Of a stretch of 49,744 nucleotides of DNA, positions 2,493 through 49,744 are shown piece by piece. A model generated the notes under the pieces. The model saw only the letters and a program-made list of their open reading frames with translations, did not search any database and was not told the DNA's origin. How positions within the stretch are numbered: position 1 is the first letter of the stretch; each line of letters begins with the position of its first letter. Position numbers and translations under genes: made by a program. Source of the stretch: Candidatus Oscillibacter pullicola (lineage in GTDB: Bacteria > Bacillota > Clostridia > Oscillospirales > Oscillospiraceae); NCBI GenBank assembly GCA_019118935.1, contig DWXY01000087.1, positions 1 through 49,744 on the forward strand. Reading direction: 5' to 3'.

Positions 2493-3145
2493 GTGCCTGC
2501 CTCAGGCGCGCCGTCCGCCCAGGCCTGGAGGCGGTTGAAGAACCGCCCCACGTGAAAGCCGTCCGTGACGCCGTGGTGGACCTGCATGGCCAGGGGCAGC
2601 AGGGTGCGGCCGTTCTCCTCCCGGTAGCGGCCCAGGGTGAAGATGGGCAGCAGGTAGTCGTTGGCCTCCGGCAGCTCCAGGTGCAGACTCCGGAAGGAGG
2701 CCCAGGGCACGGCGGAGATGTTGAAGAGCCCCTGTCCCGCCTCCGGTGGGCGGGCCTCAAAGGTGTGGATGTCCCCATAGCGGGCCCGGTCCGCCTCCCA
2801 AGCCTGGCAGAAGGCCCGCAGGTCCGGCTGGTAGGCGGTCCAGAGGACGGAGAAGGTCTCGTCGTCCTTGTGGAAAATCGTATAGGCGGGGTCCACCCGG
2901 TCGTAGACGCCGATGGCCCCCGTCTCATCCATGGCCATGCGGAGGGCCGGGTCCGCGTTGACCATCCGGGAGATGCCGTGGATCACCGACGGGTAGAACC
3001 GGAGTCCCGACCCCCGCAGGCGGGGCAGCAGGGCGGTGATGTCCACGTCCACCGTCATGCTGTACCAGCAGGGCACGTCCCGGTGGTAATGCTCAAAATA
3101 CGGGCGGCGGGGCCACGTGGCGTAGTCGATCTTCTGAAATCCCAT
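2489..3145 (-). CDS. CatA-type chloramphenicol acetyltransferase family protein
   Basis: A 218-residue protein of normal CAT length. The catalytic motif HHxxxDG is present as 'HHGVTDGFHVGRF' (190-202), giving His191 as the base and Asp195 as the structural aspartate. 'FNISAVPWASF' (141-151) matches the CAT substrate-pocket block, and the 'RRPYFEHY' N-terminus (13-20) is typical. Family members move acetyl from acetyl-CoA to chloramphenicol, but many chromosomal Firmicute copies have no proven resistance role. The start at 3145 shares one base with the polA stop (TGATG), which excludes the longer upstream reading. The stop overlaps the next start (ATGA). Confidence 0.85.
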   Translation of the reverse strand: MGFQKIDYATWPRRPYFEHYHRDVPCWYSMTVDVDITALLPRLRGSGLRFYPSVIHGISRMVNADPALRMAMDETGAIGVYDRVDPAYTIFHKDDETFSVLWTAYQPDLRAFCQAWEADRARYGDIHTFEARPPEAGQGLFNISAVPWASFRSLHLELPEANDYLLPIFTLGRYREENGRTLLPLAMQVHHGVTDGFHVGRFFNRLQAWADGAPEAGT

Positions 3146-5793
3146 CAGCCCTTGGCCTCCAGCCAGTTTCTTCCCCAGTGGGCGTCCGCCGTCAGGGGGA
3201 CGGAGAGGGACACTACGTTCTCCATCTCCTCCTTCAGCAGCGCCGCGGCGGTCTCCGCCTGGGCCTCCGGGCACTCCACGATCAGCTCGTCGTGGACCTG
3301 CAGCACCAGGCGGGCCTCCGGCAGCTCCTGCCGCAGGCGCTTCCGCATCGCCACCATGGCCAGCTTCATGATGTCCGCCGCGGTGCCCTGGATGGGCATG
3401 TTCAGGGCCACCCGCTCCCCGAAGGAGCGGAGGTTGAAGTTGGAGGACTTCAGCTCCGGCAGGTCCCGCCGCCGGTGGAACAGCGTCTCCACATAGCCCT
3501 GCTCCCTGGCCCGCTCCACGATGGCGTCCATATAGGTCCGGACACCGGGGAAGGTGGCGAAGTACGCCTCCATATACGCCTTGGCCTCCGCCACGCTGAC
3601 GCCGATGTCCTGGCTCAGGGAGAAGGCGGAGATGCCGTAGACGATGCCGAAGTTCACCGCCTTGGCCTGGCGGCGCATCTCATGGGTCACCTGGTCCGGC
3701 GCCACGTGGAACACCTTGGCCGCCGTCTCCGCGTGGAAGTCCCCGCCGGAGCGGAAGGCGGCGATCATGGCCTCGTCCCCGGCCATGTGGGCCAGCAGCC
3801 GCAGCTCGATCTGGGAGTAGTCGGCGTCCACCAGGACGCAGCCCTCCGCCGGGATGAACATCCGCCGGATCTCGCTGCCCAGGTCCGTGCGGGTGGGGAT
3901 GTTCTGGAGGTTGGGCTCCGTGGAGGAGAGGCGGCCCGTGGCCGTCACCGTCATCTGGAAGGAGGTCCGCACCCGGCCGTCCGGGTCCATGGCCTTCAAA
4001 AGGCCGTCGGCATAGGTGGATTTCAGCTTGGCGTACTGGCGGTACTCCAGCACCGCCCCCACGATGGGGGCCTCGTACCGAAGCTTTTCCAGCACGTCGG
4101 CGTTGGTGGACCAGCCGGTCTTGGTCTTCTTGCCGTGGGGCAGGCCCAGCTTGCCGAAGAGGATCTCCCCCAGCTGCTTGGGGGAGTTGATGTTGAATTC
4201 CTCCCCCGCTAGGTCGTAGATCTGCCGCTCCAGCTCGGCGCTCCGGACGGCCAGGGCCTCTCCAAAATCTGCCAGGGTCTTGGCGTCCACCCGGCATCCG
4301 GCGGTCTCCATCTCCGCCAGAACCCGGCACAGGGGCATCTCCGCCCGTTCAAAGAGGTCCGTGAGGTTCTTCTCCCGCAGTCTGGGGGCCAGGGTCTCAT
4401 ACAGCGCATCCACAGCGGAGGTATGGCAGTGGAAGGCCGTCTCCGCCGGGAGCGGGTCCCCCAGGGGGGAGAATGCCTCCGGCTCCAGATGCAGGGGCTT
4501 CATCAGCTCTACATTGTAATAGGAGACAAACAGCCGCTGGAGGTCATAGCTGCCCGCCGTGGCGTCCAGCAGGTAGGCGGCCAGGGCGGTGTCGAAGACG
4601 AAGCCCTCCGCCCGCAGGCCGTTTTCCAGCAGCGTCCGCGTCAGGTCCTTCACGTTGTGGGAGACCTTTTTGATATCCGCCGCGAACAGGGCGTTCAACA
4701 GGGCGTTCCAGTCCCCCTGGTACTTGTCGAAGAACAGCTCCGCCGTGACGCCGGTGTCCGCCCCGGTCCGGCAGACCACGGAGAGGCCCGTCAGGTCCGG
4801 CAGGGCCAGCACCGATACATGGTCCGCCGCCCGCCAGAGGGCCAGCAGCCGCTCCGCCTGGGCAGGCTCTGTGACCTGCTCCACGGTCATGGTGAAGTCC
4901 GGTTTTTCCGCCCCTTTCTCCTCCGCCGGGGACAGGCTGAACTTCTCGATCAGCTTGGTGAACTCCAGCTTCAAAAACAGCGGGTAGGCGTCCGGACCGG
5001 GCTTCTGGCGCAGGTTATCCTCTGGGTGGAAGTCCAGGGGCGCGTCGGTGACGATGGTGGCCAGCCAGCAGGACTCCCGGGCGCTCTTCTCCCCCTCCGC
5101 CAGCTTGCGGATGGCGGAGGGCTTGGCGTCGATGTCCGGCATTTTGGCGTACAGGTTGTCGATGCTCTCGTACTGCTGGATCAGGGCCATGGCGGTCTTC
5201 TCCCCGATGCCGGGGACGCCGGGGATGTTGTCGGAGCTGTCCCCCATCAGGGCCTTCAGGTCGATCATGTGGATGGGGGCGAAGCCGTACTGCTCCCGGA
5301 AGGCCGCCTCCGTCATGTCACGGGTCACGGTCTGCCCCATGCGGGTGGACACCAGCTTCACCATGGTGTGGTCGGTGATGAGCTGCAGGCTGTCCTTGTC
5401 GCCGGTGACCACCACGCAGTCCCAGCCGTCCGCCTCGCACCTGCGGGAGATGGTGCCGATCAGGTCGTCGGCCTCCCAGCCCTCCTGCTCATAGCGGGGA
5501 ATGTTCAGGGCGTCCAGTACCTCTTTCAGCACCGGCACCTGGACCTGGAGCTCCTCCGGCATGGGCTTGCGGGTGGCCTTGTAGGCCTCCGACGCCTGGT
5601 GGCGGAAGGTGGGGGCATGGACGTCGAAGGTGACGCACAAGGCGTCCGGCGCCTCCTCCCCCTCCAGCCGGAGGAGCGTGGTGAGAAAGCCGAAGATGGC
5701 GTGGGTGTAGAGCCCGTCCCGTGTGGTGAGGGGACGGATGCCGTAATAGGCCCGATTCAGGATGCTGTTGCCGTCGATGACCATGAGCTTCAT
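3145..5793 (-). CDS. polA: DNA polymerase I
   Basis: An 882-residue family A polymerase used in Okazaki fragment processing and repair. The N-terminal 5'-nuclease (1-290) keeps its acidic metal ligands: D7, D57, E108/D109/D110 in 'GWEADD', D132/D134 in 'TGDKD', and D185/D188 before the helix-hairpin-helix 'NIPGVPGIG'. The middle 3'-5' exonuclease region (300-470) lacks the D-x-E motif, so proofreading is probably absent, as in several Firmicute enzymes. The polymerase has motif A 'DYSQIELR' (D658), motif B from R708 to Y719, and motif C 'QVHDE' (D835). The ATG at 5793 follows AGGAGGGA by 7 bases; earlier in-frame ATGs lie upstream of the promoter. Confidence 0.97.
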   Translation of the reverse strand: MKLMVIDGNSILNRAYYGIRPLTTRDGLYTHAIFGFLTTLLRLEGEEAPDALCVTFDVHAPTFRHQASEAYKATRKPMPEELQVQVPVLKEVLDALNIPRYEQEGWEADDLIGTISRRCEADGWDCVVVTGDKDSLQLITDHTMVKLVSTRMGQTVTRDMTEAAFREQYGFAPIHMIDLKALMGDSSDNIPGVPGIGEKTAMALIQQYESIDNLYAKMPDIDAKPSAIRKLAEGEKSARESCWLATIVTDAPLDFHPEDNLRQKPGPDAYPLFLKLEFTKLIEKFSLSPAEEKGAEKPDFTMTVEQVTEPAQAERLLALWRAADHVSVLALPDLTGLSVVCRTGADTGVTAELFFDKYQGDWNALLNALFAADIKKVSHNVKDLTRTLLENGLRAEGFVFDTALAAYLLDATAGSYDLQRLFVSYYNVELMKPLHLEPEAFSPLGDPLPAETAFHCHTSAVDALYETLAPRLREKNLTDLFERAEMPLCRVLAEMETAGCRVDAKTLADFGEALAVRSAELERQIYDLAGEEFNINSPKQLGEILFGKLGLPHGKKTKTGWSTNADVLEKLRYEAPIVGAVLEYRQYAKLKSTYADGLLKAMDPDGRVRTSFQMTVTATGRLSSTEPNLQNIPTRTDLGSEIRRMFIPAEGCVLVDADYSQIELRLLAHMAGDEAMIAAFRSGGDFHAETAAKVFHVAPDQVTHEMRRQAKAVNFGIVYGISAFSLSQDIGVSVAEAKAYMEAYFATFPGVRTYMDAIVERAREQGYVETLFHRRRDLPELKSSNFNLRSFGERVALNMPIQGTAADIMKLAMVAMRKRLRQELPEARLVLQVHDELIVECPEAQAETAAALLKEEMENVVSLSVPLTADAHWGRNWLEAKG

Positions 5794-7150: not shown

Positions 7151-7325
7151 CGCTCAGATAGAGGCGCGGCGTTCATCAGTACCGCTCCGGCAAGGCCAGG
7201 CAGCCGCCGGATGGGAAAGGGTCCGCCGCCGAAGTACCGGGACGATGCCTGTCCTTCCGGTGCTGGGCCGTCAGGGAATACCTGCCGGACTGTCACAAAC
7301 CTTTGTGAAGCGCTATCGATGGCTG
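7151..7325 (+). ncRNA. lysine riboswitch (L box) aptamer
   Basis: The leader carries the conserved lysine-aptamer blocks in order: GATAGAGGCGCG (7157-7168), the loop-E/turn segment ending CAGTA (7177-7181), GGGAAAGGG (7213-7221), GCCGAAG (7228-7234), ACTGTCA (7289-7295) and the closing GCTATC (7312-7317). P1 is GATAG (7157-7161) with CTATC (7313-7317). The segment AAGCG...ATGG in and after P1 (7309-7322) is complementary to CCAT...CGCTT in the left arm of the downstream terminator. Lysine holding P1 closed would therefore free the terminator. This is an OFF switch in front of an importer. Confidence 0.93.
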
Positions 7326-23084: not shown

Positions 23085-23262
23085 TTGGAGTGAAGAGACC
23101 GGAGCTGAATGAGGAATGAGGAGTTAGGAATTAGGAATTGTGGTGTCCGGCAAAGCCGGACAAATCAAAATCGTTCCGCCTGCGGCGGAACACCTCAGCT
23201 CCACTCTTCACTCTCCACTCTCCAAAAAATTCCTAATTCCTAACTCCTAATTCCTAATTGTA
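23085..23262 (+). repeat. long imperfect inverted repeat, family 1 (copy 2, purO-AICARFT gap)
   Basis: The left arm (23088-23144) almost lacks C and iterates GGAATGAGGA / GTTAGGAATTAGGAATT. The right arm (23200-23260) lacks G and returns CTCTTCACTCTCCACTCTCC then TTCCTAATTCCTAACTCC. Two GC hairpins sit at the tip: GTCCGGC-AAA-GCCGGAC (23149-23165) and GTTCCGCC-TGC-GGCGGAAC (23171 onward). The downstream ribosome site follows the right arm at once. Confidence 0.75.
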
Positions 23263-23275
23263 TCGGGAGGTTTCC

Positions 23276-24454
23276 ATGAACGAATTGGAACTGAAATACG
23301 GCTGCAACCCCAACCAGAAGCCCGCCCGCATCTTCATGCGGGACGGGTCCGACCTGCCCCTCACGGTGCTGAACGGCAAGCCGGGATACATCAACTTTCT
23401 GGACGCCCTGAACTCCTGGCAGCTGGTGCGGGAGCTGAAAGAAGCCACCGGCCTCCCTGCCGCCGCGTCCTTCAAGCACGTCTCCCCCGCTGGCGCTGCC
23501 GTGGGGCTGCCCCTCTCTGACGTGGAGCGGCAGATGTACTTCGTGGAATCTGGCGCAGACCTGTCTCCCATCGCCTGCGCCTATATCCGGGCCCGGGGGG
23601 CGGACCGGCTGTGCTCCTACGGGGACTGGGCGGCCCTCTCCGACGTGTGTGACGGAGCCACCGCCCGGTATCTGAAGCTGGAGGTGTCCGACGGCATCAT
23701 CGCCCCCGGCTACACCGATGAGGCCCTGGATATTCTCAAAACCAAGAAGAAAGGCAATTACAACATCGTGCAGATCGACCCGGACTACGTCCCCGCCCCC
23801 CAGGAGTACAAGGACGTGTTCGGCGTCACCTTCCAGCAGGGCCGGAACAACTTCGCCATCAACGAGGGCCTGCTGAACAACATCGTCACGGAGAACAAGG
23901 ACCTGCCGGAGGCGGCCAGGCGGGACATGATCGTGGCCCTCATCACATTGAAATACACCCAGTCCAACTCCGTCTGCTACGTGAAGGACGGGCAGGCCAT
24001 CGGCGTGGGGGCGGGCCAGCAGAGCCGCATCCACTGCACCCGCCTGGCGGGCACCAAGGCGGACACCTGGTGGCTGCGGCACCACCCCAAGGTACTGGGC
24101 CTGCGATTCGTGGAGAACATCCGCCGCCCGGACCGGGACAACGCCATCGACGTGTACCTCTCCGACGAGTACGAGGACGTGCTGGCGGAGGGCGTCTGGC
24201 AGCAGACCTTCGCCGTGAAGCCGGAACCCCTGACGGCGGAGGAGAAGCGCGCCTGGATCGCGGCCCTCACCGGCGTCACCTGCGGCTCCGACGCCTTCTT
24301 CCCCTTCGGCGACAACGTGGAGCGAGCGAGAAAGTCCGGCGTGCAGTACATCGCCGAGCCCGGCGGCAGCATCCGGGACGACAATGTCATTGAGACGGCC
24401 AATAAGTATGGCATCGTGATGGCGTTTACGGGGATGAGGCTGTTCCACCACTGA
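23276..24454 (+). CDS. purH: AICAR transformylase, stand-alone PurH C-terminal-type domain
   Basis: A 392-residue protein that covers only the AICAR formyltransferase part of PurH (full PurH is ~510-530 residues). 'KYGCNPNQKPA' (7-17), the catalytic Lys67-His68 pair in 'SFKHVSPAG', 'YVKDGQAIGVGAGQQSRI' and 'DAFFPF' identify it. No MGS-like cyclohydrolase domain is present at the N-terminus; the ATG at 23276 has GGGAGG 5 bases upstream and leaves no room for one. It transfers formyl from 10-formyl-THF to AICAR; the product goes to PurO from the gene before. Confidence 0.93.
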   Translation: MNELELKYGCNPNQKPARIFMRDGSDLPLTVLNGKPGYINFLDALNSWQLVRELKEATGLPAAASFKHVSPAGAAVGLPLSDVERQMYFVESGADLSPIACAYIRARGADRLCSYGDWAALSDVCDGATARYLKLEVSDGIIAPGYTDEALDILKTKKKGNYNIVQIDPDYVPAPQEYKDVFGVTFQQGRNNFAINEGLLNNIVTENKDLPEAARRDMIVALITLKYTQSNSVCYVKDGQAIGVGAGQQSRIHCTRLAGTKADTWWLRHHPKVLGLRFVENIRRPDRDNAIDVYLSDEYEDVLAEGVWQQTFAVKPEPLTAEEKRAWIAALTGVTCGSDAFFPFGDNVERARKSGVQYIAEPGGSIRDDNVIETANKYGIVMAFTGMRLFHH

Positions 24455-24465
24455 GGAGATTCGAA

Positions 24466-24637
24466 GGGGAGCAAGCTCCCCCTCGACCTCCCCCACCACC
24501 AGTGACATCGGTCACTGGTGCCGCCGCCCAAGGCGGCTGGGTCAATGAATTTTCGCCACGTACACGCCGCGGCGAAAATGATTTTCATGTTTTGATTTGC
24601 AATGGCAAATCAACTGGGGAATCCCATTGGTTTCCCC
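24466..24637 (+). repeat. directional multi-hairpin element, family 2 (copy A, AICARFT-purD gap)
   Basis: In transcript order: a GGGGAG/CTCCCC hairpin (24466-24481); H1 CACCAGTGAC/GTCACTGGTG (24497-24520); H2 GCCGCC/GGCGGC (24523-24537); H3 ATTTTCGCC/GGCGAAAAT with GTACACGCC in its loop (24549-24579); H4 TTGATTTGC/GCAAATCAA (24592-24613); H5 GGGGAA/TTCCCC (24616-24637). The same order, the identical H1 arms and the loop 9-mer recur on the minus strand at 42378-42580. No coding frame explains it. Confidence 0.8.
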
Positions 24638-24690
24638 TAGCGTCTTTCCTCTCAACAACGCTTTTGGGATACAGCAAGGAGGCTGGTGCA

Positions 24691-25971
24691 ATGACGCTCC
24701 TCGTAGTGGGCGGCGGCGGCCGGGAGCACGCCATCATCAAAAAACTGAAAGATAATCCGGCGGTGGAGACGATTTACGTCCTGCCGGGCAACGGCGGCAT
24801 CGCCGCCGACGCCGTCTGCGTGCCGGAGATTGCGGCCACGGACATCGACGCCATCGTGGCCTTTGCCCAGAGCCACGCCGTGGACTTCGCCGTGGTGGCG
24901 CCGGACGACCCCCTGGCCCTGGGGTGCGTGGACGCCCTCCACGCCGTGGGCATCCCCTGCTTCGGGCCTGACGCCAGGGCCGCCCGGATCGAGTCCAGCA
25001 AGGTCTTTGCCAAGGACCTGATGAAAAAATACAACATCCCCACCGCCCGGTATGAGGTATTCACCTCCCCGGCGGATGCCCTGGCCTTTTTGAAGACCGC
25101 CTCCTTCCCCATCGTCATCAAGGCGGACGGCCTGGCGCTGGGCAAGGGGGTGCTGATCCCCCGGTCCTATGAAGAGGCGGAGGCGGCCGTCAAGACCATC
25201 ATGGAGGACCGGGCCTTCGGGGACTCCGGCAGCCGGGTGGTGATTGAAGAGTTTTTGACCGGGCCGGAGGTCAGCGTCCTGGCCTTTACCGACGGCACCG
25301 CCATCGCCCCCATGGTGTCCTCCATGGACCACAAGCGGGCGGGGGACGGAGACACCGGCCCCAACACCGGCGGCATGGGCACCGTGGCCCCCAACCCCTG
25401 CTACACGGAGGAGGTCGCCAAAGTGTGCATGGACACCATCTTCCTGCCCACCCTGGCCGCCATGCGGGCGGAGGGCTGCCCCTTCAAGGGGTGCCTGTAC
25501 TTCGGTCTCATGCTGACCCCCGACGGGCCCAGGGTCATCGAGTACAATTGCCGCTTCGGGGACCCGGAGACCCAGGTGGTGCTGCCCCTGCTGAAGACGG
25601 ACCTGCTGACCATCATGCAGGCGGTAGAGAATGAGACGCTGGGAGATCTCGCCGTGGAGTGGCGGAACGCCTCCGCCGCCTGCGTCATCCTGGCCTCCGG
25701 CGGGTATCCGGGGCACTACGAGAAGGGCAGGGCCATCTCCCTGCCCGGGTCGCTGCCGGGGAACGTGACCATCTTCCACGCCGGAGACAGGCTGGACGAG
25801 AATGGGCAGCTGGTCACCAGCGGCGGCCGGGTGCTGGGCATCACTGCCACCGGCCCCACCCTGCGGCAGGCGTTGAAGGACGCCTACGCTGCCGCAGAGA
25901 CAGTGGACTTTGACGGCAAGTACCTGCGCCATGACATCGGCCAGCGGGCGCTGGCGGCCCTGGCAGACTGA
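24691..25971 (+). CDS. purD: PurD, phosphoribosylamine-glycine ligase
   Basis: A 426-residue ATP-grasp enzyme (step 2 of the pathway). 'VVGGGGREHAI' (4-14) opens the N domain; 'VIKADGLALGKGV' and 'GDGDTGPNTGGMGT' belong to the ATP-grasp core, and 'EYNCRFGDPETQ' carries the metal-binding Glu and Asn. AAGGAGG lies 8 bases before the ATG. The gene follows the family 2 hairpin element, so its translation may depend on how that RNA folds. Confidence 0.96.
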   Translation: MTLLVVGGGGREHAIIKKLKDNPAVETIYVLPGNGGIAADAVCVPEIAATDIDAIVAFAQSHAVDFAVVAPDDPLALGCVDALHAVGIPCFGPDARAARIESSKVFAKDLMKKYNIPTARYEVFTSPADALAFLKTASFPIVIKADGLALGKGVLIPRSYEEAEAAVKTIMEDRAFGDSGSRVVIEEFLTGPEVSVLAFTDGTAIAPMVSSMDHKRAGDGDTGPNTGGMGTVAPNPCYTEEVAKVCMDTIFLPTLAAMRAEGCPFKGCLYFGLMLTPDGPRVIEYNCRFGDPETQVVLPLLKTDLLTIMQAVENETLGDLAVEWRNASAACVILASGGYPGHYEKGRAISLPGSLPGNVTIFHAGDRLDENGQLVTSGGRVLGITATGPTLRQALKDAYAAAETVDFDGKYLRHDIGQRALAALAD

Positions 25972-31904: not shown

Positions 31905-32014
31905 GGACCGTAGGGGCGGTTATCAACCGCCCGGGGGATTTTGTTCCCGCAAGGAGCCGTTACCACGTGGGTACGCCCCCCATTCTCTTTTTGGTCTTGC
32001 CCAAAAAGAGAATG
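31905..32014. repeat. intergenic repeat, family 3 (copy 1)
   Basis: Holds GGGCGGTT-ATC-AACCGCCC (about 31916-31934), then GGGTACGCCCCCCATT (31968-31983 region), then a perfect 14-bp hairpin CATTCTCTTTTTGG / CCAAAAAGAGAATG (31981-31994, 32001-32014) with loop TCTTGC. GTACGCCCCCCATT and TTTGGTCTTGCCCA recur at the right edge of the window. The rest of the gap to 32332 shows no gene, tRNA or clear structure; open frames in it have no ribosome site or recognisable protein. Confidence 0.6.
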
Positions 32015-33634: not shown

Positions 33635-33640
33635 GATCGT

Positions 33641-33755
33641 GCAAAGATAAAAACACGTCCCGGTCGGTAGTCCGGGAGCGGCCCATGGGCCGTCAGTAAC
33701 CTGCCTCCTTGGTTGTCCGTTCTTTGTAAGCGCTTTTTTCAAAGGAGGACACCCT
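33641..33755 (+). ncRNA. structured leader of yjdF, candidate yjdF riboswitch
   Basis: Two hairpins (TCCCGG/CCGGGA, 33658-33677; CGGCCCATGGGCCG, 33680-33693) precede a segment AGTAACCTGCCTCCTTGG (33695-33712). Its CCTCCTT (33704-33710) is the exact complement of the ribosome site AAGGAGG (33742-33748). The leader can therefore hide or expose the ribosome site. yjdF genes in Firmicutes are known to lie behind the yjdF riboswitch, which senses aza-aromatic compounds. I infer identity from gene context plus this pairing, not from a covariance match. Confidence 0.55.
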
Positions 33756-38397: not shown

Positions 38398-39261
38398 ATG
38401 ACACCCCAAAAGATCGCCCTGCTCACGGATTCCTGCGCGGACCTCTCCCCCCAATTGGCGGCGGAAAACCAGGTCTTTGTCGTGCCCCTGCGGATCCTGT
38501 GCAGAGACGGAGAGTACCGGGACGGCGTGGACATCCACGCCGCCGACATCTATGCCCGCCTGCGTTCCGGAGAGCTGCCTCAGACCTCCCTTCCCGCCGC
38601 TCAGGACATTTCGGACGCCTTTGACGCCATCGCCGCGGCAGGGTACGACGGGGTCATCGCCCTGATGCTCTCCGGCGGCCTCTCCGGCACCTACAACATG
38701 GTGCGGCTGCTGGCGGAGGAGCGGAGGGACCTGACCATCCGGGTGTATGACTCCGTCAGCGGGTCTCTGGGCACCGGCATGATGATCCTCCAGCTGGCAG
38801 AGGATCTGCGGCAGGGGATGGACTGGCAGACGCTGACGGAGCGCCGGGTGCCCTGGCTGATCCAGAACACCTTCCCCTTTTTCTCCGTGGACACGCTGGA
38901 GTACCTGCAGAAAGGCGGCCGCATCGGCAAGGTGACGGCCATGGCGGGCACCGTACTCCAGATCAAGCCCCTCATCACCTTCGCCGCCGACGGGCAGCTC
39001 CAGTCCATTGCCAAGGTCCGGGGCCGGAACCTGGTGATCCGCAAGCTCATCGAGCTGGTGACGCAGTCCCACAACGGCGCCGCCCGGTACAATCTGGCGG
39101 TGGCCAACGGCGGTGCCCCGGCGGAGATGGAGATCCTGCGGGACAAGCTCACCGCCGCCCTGCCAAACTATGACCACATCTGGAGCGGCGAGCTGGACGG
39201 GACCCTCAGTGTCTACATCGGCGACGGCGTGCTGGGCGCTGCGGTGCAGAGGCTGGAATAG
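38398..39261 (+). CDS. DegV family fatty-acid-binding protein
   Basis: A 287-residue DegV protein. 'LLTDSCADL' (8-16) begins domain 1, 'MLSGGLSGTYNMVRL' (about 90-104) is the lipid-binding loop, and 'VDTLEYLQKGGRIG' (about 163-176) is the domain-2 signature. In Firmicutes some DegV proteins (FakB) present fatty acids to the kinase FakA; no fakA is in this window. The ATG at 38398 has GGAG about 10 bases upstream. Divergent TetR and the palindrome suggest local control. Confidence 0.92.
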   Translation: MTPQKIALLTDSCADLSPQLAAENQVFVVPLRILCRDGEYRDGVDIHAADIYARLRSGELPQTSLPAAQDISDAFDAIAAAGYDGVIALMLSGGLSGTYNMVRLLAEERRDLTIRVYDSVSGSLGTGMMILQLAEDLRQGMDWQTLTERRVPWLIQNTFPFFSVDTLEYLQKGGRIGKVTAMAGTVLQIKPLITFAADGQLQSIAKVRGRNLVIRKLIELVTQSHNGAARYNLAVANGGAPAEMEILRDKLTAALPNYDHIWSGELDGTLSVYIGDGVLGAAVQRLE

Positions 39262-39418
39262 AGAGTGAAGAGTGGAGATAAAAGTGAAAAGATAAGAGAT
39301 CGAACGCGCAAAGAGGACCCGGCGGCCCAACGGCCCCGGGTCCTCTCAAAATATCTCTTATCTCTTATCTTTTATCTCTGATCTCTTCTATATCTTCACT
39401 CTCCACTCTTCACTCTCG
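39261..39418 (+). repeat. long imperfect inverted repeat, family 1 (copy 3, after degV)
   Basis: The left arm (39261-39300) has no C: GAGAGTGAAGAGTGGAGA then AAAAGATAAGAGAT. The right arm (39350-39418) has a single G and ends with the exact inverse of the first 18 bases (39401-39418). The tip is a GC hairpin AGAGGACCCGG / CCGGGTCCTCT. CTTCACTCTCCACTC is shared with copy 2. Confidence 0.8.
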
Positions 39419-40082: not shown

Positions 40083-42266
40083 TCACTTGAGGACAGCCTT
40101 GCGGCCGGCCGCATCCACGGCGCGGATGGTCAGCCGCTCGCCGTCATACTTGTTTTTGCGGAACAGCAGGTAGGCCGCCAGAACCAGCACCGCCGCCGCG
40201 GCAATGGTGCCGACGCCGAAGGTGACTTCACCGGTGATGAGGCCGCCGATCTGGTAGACCACCAGGGAGGTCAGGTACGCGAAGGCGCACATATAGCCGA
40301 TGGCGATGGCAGTCCACCTGGGGTTGTTCATCTCCCGCTTGATGGCGCCCATGGCCGCGAAGCAGGGGGCACACAGCAGGTTGAAGATCATGAAGGAGTA
40401 GGCGGAGATGGCGGTGTAGTCCTGGGCCACCAGCGCCCAGATCTCGTCGCCGTTCTCACTGATCTCACCGGCGAAGTTGTACAGCACGCCGAAGGTGGCC
40501 ACCACATTCTCCTTGGCGATGAGGCCCGTGACCACAGCCACGGTGGCCCGCCAGTTGCCGAAGCCCAAAGGCGCGAAGAGGAAGGCCACAGCGCTGCCGA
40601 TGGCGGCCAGGACAGAGTTGTTCATGTCCTCCACCAGGCCGAAGGCGCCGTTCTCCCAGCCGAAGCCCTGGAGGAACCACAGAATGATGGAGGAGGCCAG
40701 GATCACCGTGCCGGCCCGCTTGATGAAGGACCAGCCACGCTCCCAGGTGGCCCGCAGCACGTTGCCCGCGGAGGGGGTGTGGTAGGCGGGCAGCTCCATG
40801 ACGAAGGGTGCGGGATCGCCGGCGAACATCTTGGTCTTCTTCAGGATGATGCCGGAGATGATGATGGCCGCCACGCCGATGAAGTAGGCAGACACGGCCA
40901 CCCAGCCGGAGCCGCCGAACAGGGCGCCGGCGATCAGGCCGATGATGGGCATTTTGGCGCCGCAGGGGATGAAGCAGGTGGTCATGACCGTCATGCGGCG
41001 GTCCCGCTCGTTTTCAATGGTCCGGGAGGCCATGACGCCGGGGACGCCGCAGCCGGTGCCCACCAGCATGGGAATGAAGCTCTTGCCGGAGAGGCCGAAC
41101 TTCCGGAAGATTCGGTCCATGATGAAGGCGATGCGGGCCATGTAGCCGATGTCCTCCAGGATGGCCAGCATCAGGAACAGCACCAGCATCTGGGGCACGA
41201 AGCCCAGCACCGCGCCCACACCGGCCAGGGCGCCGTCACAGATCAGGCCCACGACCACTTCATTGACGCCCCAGCCCTCCAGGGCGGCACGGGGGATCTC
41301 CACCAGCCAGGCAGTGCCCAGCACGTCATTGGTCCAGTCCGTCAGGAAGGTGCCGAAGGGGCCCATGGCGATCCAGTACACCGCGAACATCACCACGGCG
41401 AAGATGGGCAGGGCCAGGATCCGGTTGGTGACGATCTGGTCGATCTTGTCGGAGGTGGAGAGGCGGTGCTTCTCGCCCTTCTTCTTGACGGCCTTCGTCA
41501 CCAGATCGTTGATGTACGCATACCGCTGGTTGGTGATGATGCTCTCCGCATCGTCGTCCAGCTCCTTCTCACAGTCCACGATGTGGTCCTCCAGATGGGC
41601 CCGGAGGTCCGTGCTCAGGTTCAGGTCCGCCAGGACCTTCTCGTCCCGCTCAAAGACCTTCACCGCGTACCAGCGGAGATACCGGTCGTCCACCATGCCC
41701 TGGATGGACTCCTCGATGTGGGCAATGGCGTGCTCCACGCTGCCCGTGAACACGTGGGGCAGCTCAGCGGCACGCTTCTGCTGGGCCAGCTTGGCGGCCA
41801 GCTCCGCGGCCTCCACGCCGCCCTCGCCCTTCAGGGCGCTGATCTCCACCACCTGGCAGCCCAGAGCGTCGCTCAGCTTCCTGGCGTCGATCTGGTCGCC
41901 GTTTCTGCGGACCAGGTCCATCATGTTCACCGCCACCACCACGGGCAGGCCCAGCTCGATCAGCTGGGTGGTCAGGTACAGGTTCCGCTCGATATTGGTG
42001 CCGTCCACGATGTTCAAAATGGCGTCGGGCTTCTCCTTCACCAGATAGTTCCGGGCCACCACTTCCTCCAGTGTGTAGGGGGACAGGGAGTAAATGCCGG
42101 GCAGGTCCTGGATGACGATATCCTTGCGGCCCTTCAGCCGGCCCTCCTTCTTTTCCACCGTGACGCCGGGCCAGTTGCCCACGTACTGGTTGGAGCCGGT
42201 CAAGTCGTTGAACAGCGTAGTCTTGCCGCAGTTCGGATTGCCGGCCAGTGCGATCTTCATGTCCAT
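40083..42266 (-). CDS. feoB: FeoB, ferrous iron transport protein B
   Basis: A 727-residue membrane GTPase for Fe(II) uptake. The N-terminal G domain has G1 'GNPNCGKTT' (9-17), G3 'DLPG' (54-57) and G4 'NMMD' (114-117), followed by the guanine-dissociation-inhibitor helices. The membrane part (about 285-710) has two Gate motifs, with conserved Cys in 'VGTGCGVPG' and 'CFIPCGAKMP'. AAGGAG lies 6 bases before the first ATG; a second ATG is two codons on. A repressor-like box sits 20 bp before the start, and the family 2 hairpin element fills the gap to feoA. Confidence 0.97.
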   Translation of the reverse strand: MDMKIALAGNPNCGKTTLFNDLTGSNQYVGNWPGVTVEKKEGRLKGRKDIVIQDLPGIYSLSPYTLEEVVARNYLVKEKPDAILNIVDGTNIERNLYLTTQLIELGLPVVVAVNMMDLVRRNGDQIDARKLSDALGCQVVEISALKGEGGVEAAELAAKLAQQKRAAELPHVFTGSVEHAIAHIEESIQGMVDDRYLRWYAVKVFERDEKVLADLNLSTDLRAHLEDHIVDCEKELDDDAESIITNQRYAYINDLVTKAVKKKGEKHRLSTSDKIDQIVTNRILALPIFAVVMFAVYWIAMGPFGTFLTDWTNDVLGTAWLVEIPRAALEGWGVNEVVVGLICDGALAGVGAVLGFVPQMLVLFLMLAILEDIGYMARIAFIMDRIFRKFGLSGKSFIPMLVGTGCGVPGVMASRTIENERDRRMTVMTTCFIPCGAKMPIIGLIAGALFGGSGWVAVSAYFIGVAAIIISGIILKKTKMFAGDPAPFVMELPAYHTPSAGNVLRATWERGWSFIKRAGTVILASSIILWFLQGFGWENGAFGLVEDMNNSVLAAIGSAVAFLFAPLGFGNWRATVAVVTGLIAKENVVATFGVLYNFAGEISENGDEIWALVAQDYTAISAYSFMIFNLLCAPCFAAMGAIKREMNNPRWTAIAIGYMCAFAYLTSLVVYQIGGLITGEVTFGVGTIAAAAVLVLAAYLLFRKNKYDGERLTIRAVDAAGRKAVLK

Positions 42267-42301: not shown

Positions 42302-42377
42302 TTTTCTCCTGAAAAACAGCGGCAACAGCCGCCATTGGTATCATGTCCCCTCCCCGCATCCCCGGGAAAAAGGGCCA

Positions 42378-42580
42378 GGAAAAAACCTCCGGTTTTTTCC
42401 GCTTGATCTGCCGAAGGCAGATCAAGCAAATGAGATCATTTTCGGCAGGGCGTGTACCTGCCGAAAATTCCCCGTCCCGTGCGTCCCTGGGGCGCACACA
42501 CCAGTGACCGACGTCACTGGTGAGGGGGAATAGTGGAGGCAGACCGCAGGTCTGCCGGAGCGTAAAGGGGGGACGCAGTC
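42378..42580 (-). repeat. directional multi-hairpin element, family 2 (copy B, feoA-feoB gap)
   Basis: In transcript (minus) order: GGGGACTGCGTCCCC and GGCAGACC/GGTCTGCC hairpins after feoA; H1 CACCAGTGAC/GTCACTGGTG (42522-42499); H2 GTGCG/CGCAC (42497-42479); H3 ATTTTCGGCAG/CTGCCGAAAAT with loop GTACACGCC (42468-42438); H4 TTGATCTGCC/GGCAGATCAA (42425-42403); H5 GGAAAAAACC/GGTTTTTTCC (42400-42378). Matches copy A in order, with paired changes in H3 and H4. Confidence 0.8.
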
Positions 42581-42586
42581 CCCTCT

Positions 42587-42808
42587 TTAAGAGACTTCGA
42601 TCTTCTCCGCATCGGCTTTCCGCACGCTGAGCTCATAGCCCCGCACATTCAGCTCCATCGGATCGCCCAGAGGCGCAACCTTGCGGACGTGGATCTCCAC
42701 GCCCTTGGTAATGCCCATATCCATGATCCGGCGCTTGGTGGCGCCCTCTCCGTGGAGCTTGACCACGGTTGCGGTCTCCCCCACTTTCACATCCTTCAGG
42801 GTTTTCAT
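42587..42808 (-). CDS. feoA: FeoA domain protein (second)
   Basis: A 73-residue SH3-like FeoA protein: 'VGETATVVKLHGEG' (7-20), 'RRIMDMGITKGVEIHVRKVA' (24-43), 'RGYELSVRKADAEKIEV' (56-72). FeoA assists FeoB at the membrane's inner face. The ATG at 42808 has AGGAGG 7 bases upstream. It is 28 bp after the other feoA and followed by the family 2 hairpin element. Confidence 0.92.
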   Translation of the reverse strand: MKTLKDVKVGETATVVKLHGEGATKRRIMDMGITKGVEIHVRKVAPLGDPMELNVRGYELSVRKADAEKIEVS

Positions 42809-48207: not shown

Positions 48208-48334
48208 ATCGTTCCTTTCCGGCCGCGGGCGGCCGTCCGATCTTCTTTGTTCTGTTTTCATGGTACAGCCTTCCGGCCGCGAAAACAAGGGAGATTTTGT
48301 GAACGATTGGAAACAAAAAGAAACAAGACGGGCG

Positions 48335-48414
48335 GAGATAAAAGTGAATGGATAAAAGATAAGAGAGCCTCACGGCCAAAGCGATCTTTTATCTCTGCTC
48401 TTTTATCTTTTATC
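48335..48414. repeat. long imperfect inverted repeat, family 1 (copy 4)
   Basis: The left arm (48335-48368) lacks C: GAGATAAAAGTGAATGGAT then AAAAGATAAGAGAG. The right arm (48385-48414) has one G and ends CTTTTATCTTTTATCTC. The tip is a small GCC-TCAC-GGC hairpin. GAGATAAAAGTGAA is shared with copy 3. Confidence 0.7.
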
Positions 48415-48432
48415 TCAACACCCTGCTCTCCG

Positions 48433-49522: not shown

Positions 49523-49594
49523 GATTGTGTACCTTCCTTTATTTGAAAAATAATGGGGAAATGCAGGGGGTGAGATGGGGGACCTCCCTCCAGG

Positions 49595-49744
49595 GGCTGT
49601 TCCCACAGGGGTACGCCCCCCATTGTCGTCGTCGCAAAGTCCGCTAAGCTCCGTTTCCGCCTGCGGCGAAAACTGCGCCCGCTCCCTTGCTCCTCCTCTC
49701 CCCACCGCGCGGGGCGCGGCGGGGGCCCCTTTTGGTCTTGCCCA
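49595..49744. repeat. intergenic repeat, family 3 (copy 2, cut by the right edge)
   Basis: GGGGTACGCCCCCCATT (about 49608-49624) and CTTTTGGTCTTGCCCA (49729-49744) repeat the two blocks of the 31.9-kb element, here with about 105 bases between them instead of about 5. The second arm of the last hairpin would lie past the edge. No gene is seen from 49523 to the edge. Confidence 0.55.

Follow-up and report, generated by a model that had tools for sequence, protein, structure and literature searches.

A sense-oriented, multi-hairpin repeat family in the intercistronic gaps of Oscillibacter and related Clostridia

The window analyzed here, a stretch of 49,744 nt from Candidatus Oscillibacter pullicola, carries two copies of a repeat of about 180 nt in which six hairpins make up one unit. 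These copies belong to a real, sense-oriented, multi-hairpin element family that lies 3' of genes and between cistrons and has relatives in several families of one order. The family is characterized by a fixed order, H0-H1-H2-H3-H4(-H5-tail), by covarying stems with a strongly conserved H3, by an orientation that follows transcription and by its absence from divergent gaps. It most likely acts on mRNA, and its work there would be the shielding or processing of RNA ends.

Our preferred explanation, which we believe and doubt in about equal measure, is a chromosome-resident repeat family that operon mRNAs would contain in sense, either at their 3' end or as a spacer between cistrons, and that would mark or shield an RNA end there. 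The folded mRNA segment would do so within the operon, and the cistrons upstream and downstream of the shielded end would then differ in amount or lifetime. H0 to H5 would block 3'-5' exonucleases, the H3 loop could be recognized by a trans-acting factor that has been retained throughout the order, and the tail might fix H5 in a class III (pyrimidine-motif) intrastrand triple helix. If true, common and genetically little-studied gut bacteria would gain a structured mRNA element of wide distribution, found in operons that serve purine, arginine, serine, iron, chaperone and other functions.

The two window copies and the architecture of the unit

The unit reads H0, a C-rich linker, H1, H2, a GGGTC spacer, H3, GATT, H4, H5 and a pyrimidine tail, with TCGAGGGGG at its 5' end and CCCCTTTCC at its 3' end. 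The pur copy (24461-24649, + strand) occupies the purH/purD gap and the feo copy (42365-42590, - strand) the feoA/feoB gap. Their parts and neighbors, with the basis of each assignment, are as follows.

24452-24454, +: purH stop codon, gene 5' of the pur copy (purH by NCBIfam)
24461-24486, +: pur copy, H0 hairpin TCGAAGGGGAGC-AA-GCTCCCCCTCGA (sequence, folding, genome-wide core search)
24487-24497, +: pur copy, C-rich linker CCTCCCCCACC (sequence)
24497-24520, +: pur copy, H1 hairpin CACCAGTGAC-ATCG-GTCACTGGTG (folding, covariation)
24523-24537, +: pur copy, H2 hairpin GCCGCC/GGCGGC (folding, covariation)
24549-24579, +: pur copy, H3 hairpin, the best-conserved part, with loop GTACACGCC at 24560-24568 (folding, covariation, other families)
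24592-24613, +: pur copy, H4 hairpin TTGATTTGC/GCAAATCAA (folding, covariation)
24614-24640, +: pur copy, H5 with purine 5' arm GGGGAA and pyrimidine 3' arm TTTCCCC, then TAG (folding, covariation)
24641-24649, +: pur copy, 3' pyrimidine tail, candidate third strand of an H5 triple helix (sequence, tail statistics)
24691-25971, +: purD, gene 3' of the pur copy, ATG at 24691 (gene annotation)
40083-42266, -: feoB, gene 3' of the feo copy (gene annotation)
42365-42374, -: feo copy, tail CCCTTTTTCC (sequence, site comparison)
42375-42402, -: feo copy, H5 (sequence, folding)
42403-42425, -: feo copy, H4 (sequence, folding)
42438-42468, -: feo copy, H3 with loop GTACACGCC (sequence, folding)
42479-42497, -: feo copy, H2 (sequence, folding)
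42499-42522, -: feo copy, H1 (sequence, folding)
42536-42590, -: feo copy, additional hairpin and H0, adjoining the feoA stop (folding; FeoA by Pfam)

The original prediction, made from the letters of the window, had placed a folded element before purD and feoB. Both copies are present and read in the sense of their host operons, and NCBIfam and Pfam confirm the flanking genes. The identical H1 arms, the kept H3 loop and the paired changes in the H3 and H4 stems are likewise as it described. It had counted five hairpins in fixed order; the order stands, and the count falls short because the first hairpin, H0, was overlooked, as was the 3' tail. All nine exact occurrences of the H0 core GGGGGAGCNNGCTCCCCC in the genome fall at copies found by DNA search (one, on C91, past an insert), and H0 is therefore integral to the element. 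In the feo copy the additional hairpin separates H0 from H1, and in the pur copy the tail is degenerate. The folding energies of the two copies correspond to z values of -7.5 (pur) and -8.8 (feo), with 0 of 200 dinucleotide shuffles as low in either case.

Copies, orientation and sites

A DNA search of the genome gave 47 matches at E <= 10, of which about 20 are clear copies, and a covariance model built from 49 copies gave 22 matches, a few of them perhaps weak echoes from the reverse strand. Across the genus (Oscillibacter/Dysosmobacter by named records) the model matches 48 of 61 genomes, with up to 34 matches per genome; the 13 genomes with no match count against the reading as an mRNA element. 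Further copies, on which the original prediction had been made to depend, are thus numerous in this genome and beyond it. The exact H3 pattern occurs in 81 DNA stretches of the species-level collection, in records of Oscillibacter (including O. valericigenes An411, An860 and An890), Dysosmobacter, Oscillospiraceae and uncultured Clostridia. At E <= 0.001, matches were found in 88 of 200 genomes of the family (58 of 106 genera) and in 25 of 295 genomes of the order (12 of 149 genera), with weaker relatives in other families; copy numbers at these two levels are lower bounds, as at most 15 and 10 candidates, respectively, were scored per genome.

A distant class retains H3 with an identical loop, GATT and H4, has different 5' hairpins and carries AACTCTGCGAGGC in place of H5. 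Two loci (L143 and L145) are hybrids that join an Oscillibacter 5' half to a distant-class 3' end. Three copies lie on one IMG/VR contig of 14,599 bases (L337). This contig is filed as viral and is possibly host DNA.

The prediction had named the element a candidate for an undescribed RNA or repeat, which agrees with our searches of databases and literature. Against Rfam 15 the whole window gave only lysine and azaaromatic riboswitches, both outside the element, and the element region with 11 relatives, searched with E-value thresholds, gave nothing near a gathering score. The near-misses among Rfam families (SAR11_0636, HCV_SL8670 and others) scored far under their gathering scores and were rejected. 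Searches of open-licence PubMed Central articles found no description of the element, and the host names are absent from two surveys of repeats and RNAs (PMC8040213, PMC12306157).

Orientation was called with a gene caller that was trained on 30 purD loci and is weak on the distant class, and the set comprised copies with at least 450 nt before and 400 nt after H3. Among the 151 copies with enough flank, the upstream gene is in sense in 145 and antisense in six. Downstream of the 145 sense copies the next gene is in sense in 126 and convergent in 13, with none called in six. No copy of the 151 lies in a divergent gap, compared with a baseline in 81 named loci of 364 co-directional, 34 convergent and 33 divergent neighbor pairs. 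These counts include sites shared among species, which are not independent, and the single complete genome G037 offers a cleaner count: 27 matches, two of them weak and dropped as reverse echoes, leave 25 copies, all in sense. Of these, 24 lie between co-directional genes; for one of the 25, the nearest called upstream gene is 1.3 kb away. By replication strand, 13 copies are leading and 12 lagging, with dnaA set as the origin and the terminus opposite it; a GC skew of eight samples was too noisy to confirm the assignment. Given these two results, orientation tracks transcription, and the random orientation to transcripts that would have counted against the prediction is not seen. In the distant class, 25 copies were examined, and 17 of the 18 with a called upstream gene are in sense.

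The sites lie between functionally linked genes, and most are common to several species. In the own genome they include purH/purD, feoA/feoB, argG/argH, grpE/dnaK, purA/purB, serC/serA-like, iolE/iolB-like, radC/uvrB, ygeY/ygeW, DUF1385/prmC, TelA/TPM and ACT protein/PRK05313, and further copies lie 3' of metG, mutL, ybaB, iolD and others. Junctions in relatives, named by eye from raw sequence, are presumably groES/groEL (L144, L146, L147) and pheS/pheT (L143, L145). Fifteen of the 18 own sites have a copy in the same orientation, with both flanks matching, at a locus of another species, from which it follows that much of the copy set is old; at one more site (L018) the counterpart copy (L303) has a single matching flank. 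At the corresponding places of G037, 16 of the 18 sites have a model match, one of them degenerate.

Gain, loss and likeness to known repeats

A less probable but still plausible explanation is a non-autonomous mobile DNA repeat of the REPIN, MITE or BOX kind, which would have spread via intercistronic gaps, its antisense copies mostly purged and its copies homogenized by gene conversion. Occupancy of purH-purD is indeed patchy: among 30 loci inspected by eye, the element is present in nine (own copy included), degenerate in one and reduced to an H0-like hairpin in two, whereas nine hold another, ORF-bearing repeat (one of them partial), five a short spacer and four something else or unreadable. 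The element is thus dispensable at some sites (purH-purD intact in 9 of the 30 loci), which we count against the mRNA reading. Whole copies are also missing from the counterpart of the own DUF1385/prmC site (L002) in L080, where only an H0-like hairpin is found, and from the iolE/iolB junction of L103, and purA/purB of L039 has a different repeat in the element's place. At the same purA/purB junction the own copy (L013) is in sense, whereas L062 carries a whole copy inverted (2980-3157). From the element-less junctions and this inverted copy we conclude that gain, loss or inversion has taken place between species, and this recheck of shared sites raised the standing of the mobile explanation. 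Block exchange of whole hairpins at shared sites (L004/L268 H1), other repeats nested within copies and the six antisense copies among 151 point the same way.

Against mobility stand the 15 own sites shared with both flanks and L018 shared with one, which make the set largely old. The ends, compared by reading, contain no terminal inverted repeats. Of 18 genomes, nine scored above the cut-off of the Y1_Tnp profile; the element-rich genomes G045, G059 and G048 had no match to it, and no element was found at any of 20 Y1-transposase loci, so that this search provides no partner enzyme. Plasmid and phage records gave no match to the element. The element-less junctions L241, L249, L252, L262, L263, L080 and L103 have flanks too diverged for showing a target-site duplication. 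The term mobile repeat used in the prediction may apply, in view of the gain, loss or inversion between species; the shared sites, the Y1 search and the plasmid and phage records do not speak for it. A mobile origin and work on mRNA are compatible with each other.

The REP/BIME and REPIN-RAYT systems (PMC3116915) are among the nearest known kinds. REP/BIME repeats could stop exonucleases, and REP palindromes are 20-40 nt long. The element shares palindromic repeats and an intercistronic or 3' position with these systems, but its unit of about 180 nt comprises six hairpins in a set order, and no RAYT partner was seen near its copies (0 of 20 Y1 loci). It differs from MITEs in having no terminal inverted repeats. 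BOX of Streptococcus pneumoniae, as presented in PMC3049150, is likewise small, interspersed and modular, with several stem-loops, variable inner modules and co-transcription in operons. Compared by kind and context rather than by sequence, our element differs from BOX in its transcription-following orientation, covarying stems, conserved H3 loop and a tail that mirrors H5; the word "compensatory" is absent from the text of that BOX paper. According to the same source, ERIC and Correia are operon repeats able to trigger mRNA cleavage, ERIC in an orientation-dependent manner; the element, compared by kind, differs from both in having no terminal inverted repeats. Differential mRNA decay within operons (PMC5927463) is an outcome of the kind proposed here, though a process and not an element. 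Overall, the element resembles BOX and BIME/REP in place and shape, and the decidable features of REP/RAYT and MITEs are absent from it.

Several other repeats occur at or within the same sites. A second repeat, which contains an ORF and has arms of the TAGGAATTAGGAATGAGGAG type or similar, sits at the exact spot of the element in purH-purD loci L239, L240, L243-L245, L247, L248 and L255. We take its ORF to encode a four-helix-bundle (23S intervening sequence/S23) protein. The window has arm pairs resembling this repeat at 23108-23259, 39256-39397 and 48333-48432. Copies at L004, L012, L060, L072, L105, L294 and others contain a further repeat (GAAAGCGGCGAAGCGCCGCC...CGCAATGCCGCAACGGTGC and variants) within an arm or loop of H0 or H5. 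An H0-like hairpin stands alone where other species carry the whole element in L246 and L259 (purH-purD) and in L080 (DUF1385/prmC); a hairpin standing alone in this way might be a target, a leftover or a module in its own right.

Covariation, the H3 loop and the tail

To return to the reading as a folded mRNA segment, the stems were examined in a MAFFT alignment (A4) that was not fitted to structure and was used for the shuffle and slid-control tests. In A4, pairing holds in 96.4% of 2293 cells, and two-sided changes are seen at 21 of 48 pairs. Of the five measures, four were reached by 0 of 500 shuffles and the fifth, further pair types, by 108 of 500; the rows being related, these shuffle counts alone give no probability. 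All five measures exceed the slid controls. Under a tree-based null, in which substitutions were re-placed along a FastTree tree in 60 replicates, 10 of 11,628 column pairs fall below E 0.05. Eight of them are register pairs of H2, H3, H4 and H5; the other two, in H2 and H4, miss the register by one column. The larger alignment thus contains the significant covariation on which the prediction had hinged. One set of 102 rows derives from 99 sources, with L037, L038 and L077 each entered twice.

Comparison of the same sites in the own genome and G037 (15 site pairs) gave 55 two-sided compensated changes, 20 one-sided changes to G.U and 44 broken ones, in a structure-fitted alignment that is biased to pairing and includes L018/L303, paired by one flank only. 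Complete hairpin alleles swap in place at shared sites, for example H1 of L004/L268. With tens of natural variants per genome, these in-place compensated changes form a data set for relating intercistronic structure to cistron ratios.

Among 189 distinct copies, 8206 pair cells comprise 7883 Watson-Crick, 115 G.U, 76 A.C and 132 other pairs, after 16 helices with less than 70% Watson-Crick pairs were dropped. When read on the sense strand, G.U outnumbers A.C (115 vs 76, p 0.006), mainly in H4 and H5 and with the reverse in H1 (9 vs 14), and this excess favors the sense strand. At 1.4% of the cells, G.U is nevertheless scarce for RNA, which counts against the mRNA reading and leaves room for homogenization or effects at the DNA level. 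The idea that selection acts on RNA shape, as originally put forward, agrees with the covariation, the in-place compensation and the sense orientation; its preference for RNA over DNA is the part that we infer, G.U being scarce.

The H3 loop looks like a recognition or tertiary motif, judging from its pattern of change. Three of its positions change jointly: of 187 copies, 137 have TCC (U..C..C), 44 have CTT (C..U..U) and six have other combinations, the two alleles being GUACACGCC and GCACAUGUC. Both forms are seen again in the distant class. In the stem of H3, pairs 70-86 and 73-83 mostly flip jointly as well, with intermediates in a few copies. One site carries an insert in its H3 loop (GTACAGAAGGTGAATTGCCC...) in two species (L010 1367-1569, and L290), from which we gather that H3 can bear a hairpin insert over a long time; a similar insert is found in L251.

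After the pyrimidine 3' arm of H5 come TAG or TGG and then C's and T's. Among the 99 copies of 187 accepted by the parser, which requires an arm with A following G and a tail with T following C, the A run of the arm and the T run of the tail correlate with rho 0.81; the 88 unparsed copies are left out. Within genomes the correlation of arm A with tail T is r 0.77 (74 copies, 12 genomes), with a stratified permutation p of 5e-5, the smallest attainable with 20,000 permutations, and that of arm G with tail C is r 0.52. Arm G+A equals tail C+T in 68 of the 99 copies. A second parse, restricted to 92 of the 187 copies with three purines at the arm start, gave rho 0.75, and its 87 purine arms out of 92 are partly built in by that requirement. 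Six arms have no A; the tail has no T in four of these cases and has T in two. At the feo site, H5 and the tail both differ between the own copy and that of G037 (L016/L270).

Scored position by position, the triplex fit is 0.865 compared with 0.824 for permuted tails (z 5.2). Perfect arm-tail position matches, 25 of 88 copies, are not above shuffles (26.5), and the run-length test is therefore the claim made here. The all-pairs covariation test gave no significance for the column triple 136/156/165 (136-165 and 156-165, E 1.9), tail and arm mismatch in part of the copies, and the pur copy has its degenerate tail, all of which we count against the triple helix. C+.G-C triples also require protonation. 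Triple-helix RNA stabilizers exist in eukaryotes and viruses; the proposed helix would do comparable work without common descent.

By run length, the tail mirrors the H5 purine arm in the way that a triple helix within one strand would demand. The 99 parsed copies have the order purine, pyrimidine and Hoogsteen pyrimidine, and PMC4666352 gives purine, pyrimidine and 3' Hoogsteen strand as the class III intrastrand order and states that pyrimidine-type intrastrand triplexes form as RNA too. In this order the H5 arms and tail resemble the PIT/BoxC/TM triplex motifs of that paper. That motif is a G/C-rich DNA repeat for which the same text reports no correlation with gene orientation, whereas here the triplex-like part forms a single module within an intercistronic element, and arm and tail vary in composition together. 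Among the papers listed by a literature search on triple helices, most concern DNA triplexes, and titles and abstracts gave no bacterial mRNA case. It is a doubtful but specific proposal that the CCCCUUUCC tail might lie as Hoogsteen strand in the major groove of H5, cap an intra-operon mRNA end against 3'-5' exonucleases and co-evolve with H5 from copy to copy. The covariation of tail and arm is a comparative hint of a bacterial mRNA triple helix that goes beyond a match in composition.

Two other partners for these segments were considered. A closing helix between the GGGTC-AAGG segment before H3 and the tail, suggested by RNAalifold, was rejected, its pairs being often broken and the segment, as judged by eye, not tracking the tail T count. 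A hairpin with the tail as 5' arm (at least seven pairs) occurs in 11 of 96 copies compared with about 2.6 in shuffles and is not general.

Selection or mutation at the level of DNA could also produce such a pattern through cruciforms or hairpins, H-DNA-like structures or template-directed correction, for example at topoisomerase or nucleoid sites at gene ends, and we regard this as rather improbable. It would suit the predominance of Watson-Crick cells (7883 of 8206), with G.U and A.C both rare, and the mirror repeat of H5 and tail, which has the symmetry of H-DNA according to PMC4666352; the antisense DNA strand could adopt a purine-motif triplex. A DNA structure would have no need to be oriented to transcription, yet of 151 copies 145 are in sense, and the replication strand is irrelevant (13 leading, 12 lagging). 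The sense-strand excess of G.U over A.C (H1 excepted) and the conservation of the H3 loop across families argue against it as well. A transcription attenuator or partial terminator setting the upstream:downstream cistron ratio is improbable: it would fit the sense position between cistrons, the T run that follows H4 before the Shine-Dalgarno sequence in some short forms (L250, L256, L258) and a conceivable Rho loading on the C-rich linker and tail, but 24400-24750 contains no intrinsic-terminator-like site (GC-rich hairpin plus T run) and aligned full forms have no T run after H4 or H5.

Elsewhere in the window, a lysine riboswitch and an azaaromatic (yjdF) riboswitch lie at 7151-7323 and 33637-33736. 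A 43-nt direct repeat containing GGGTACGCCCCCCATT is present at 31945-31987 and 49585-49627, the two occurrences being 81% identical.
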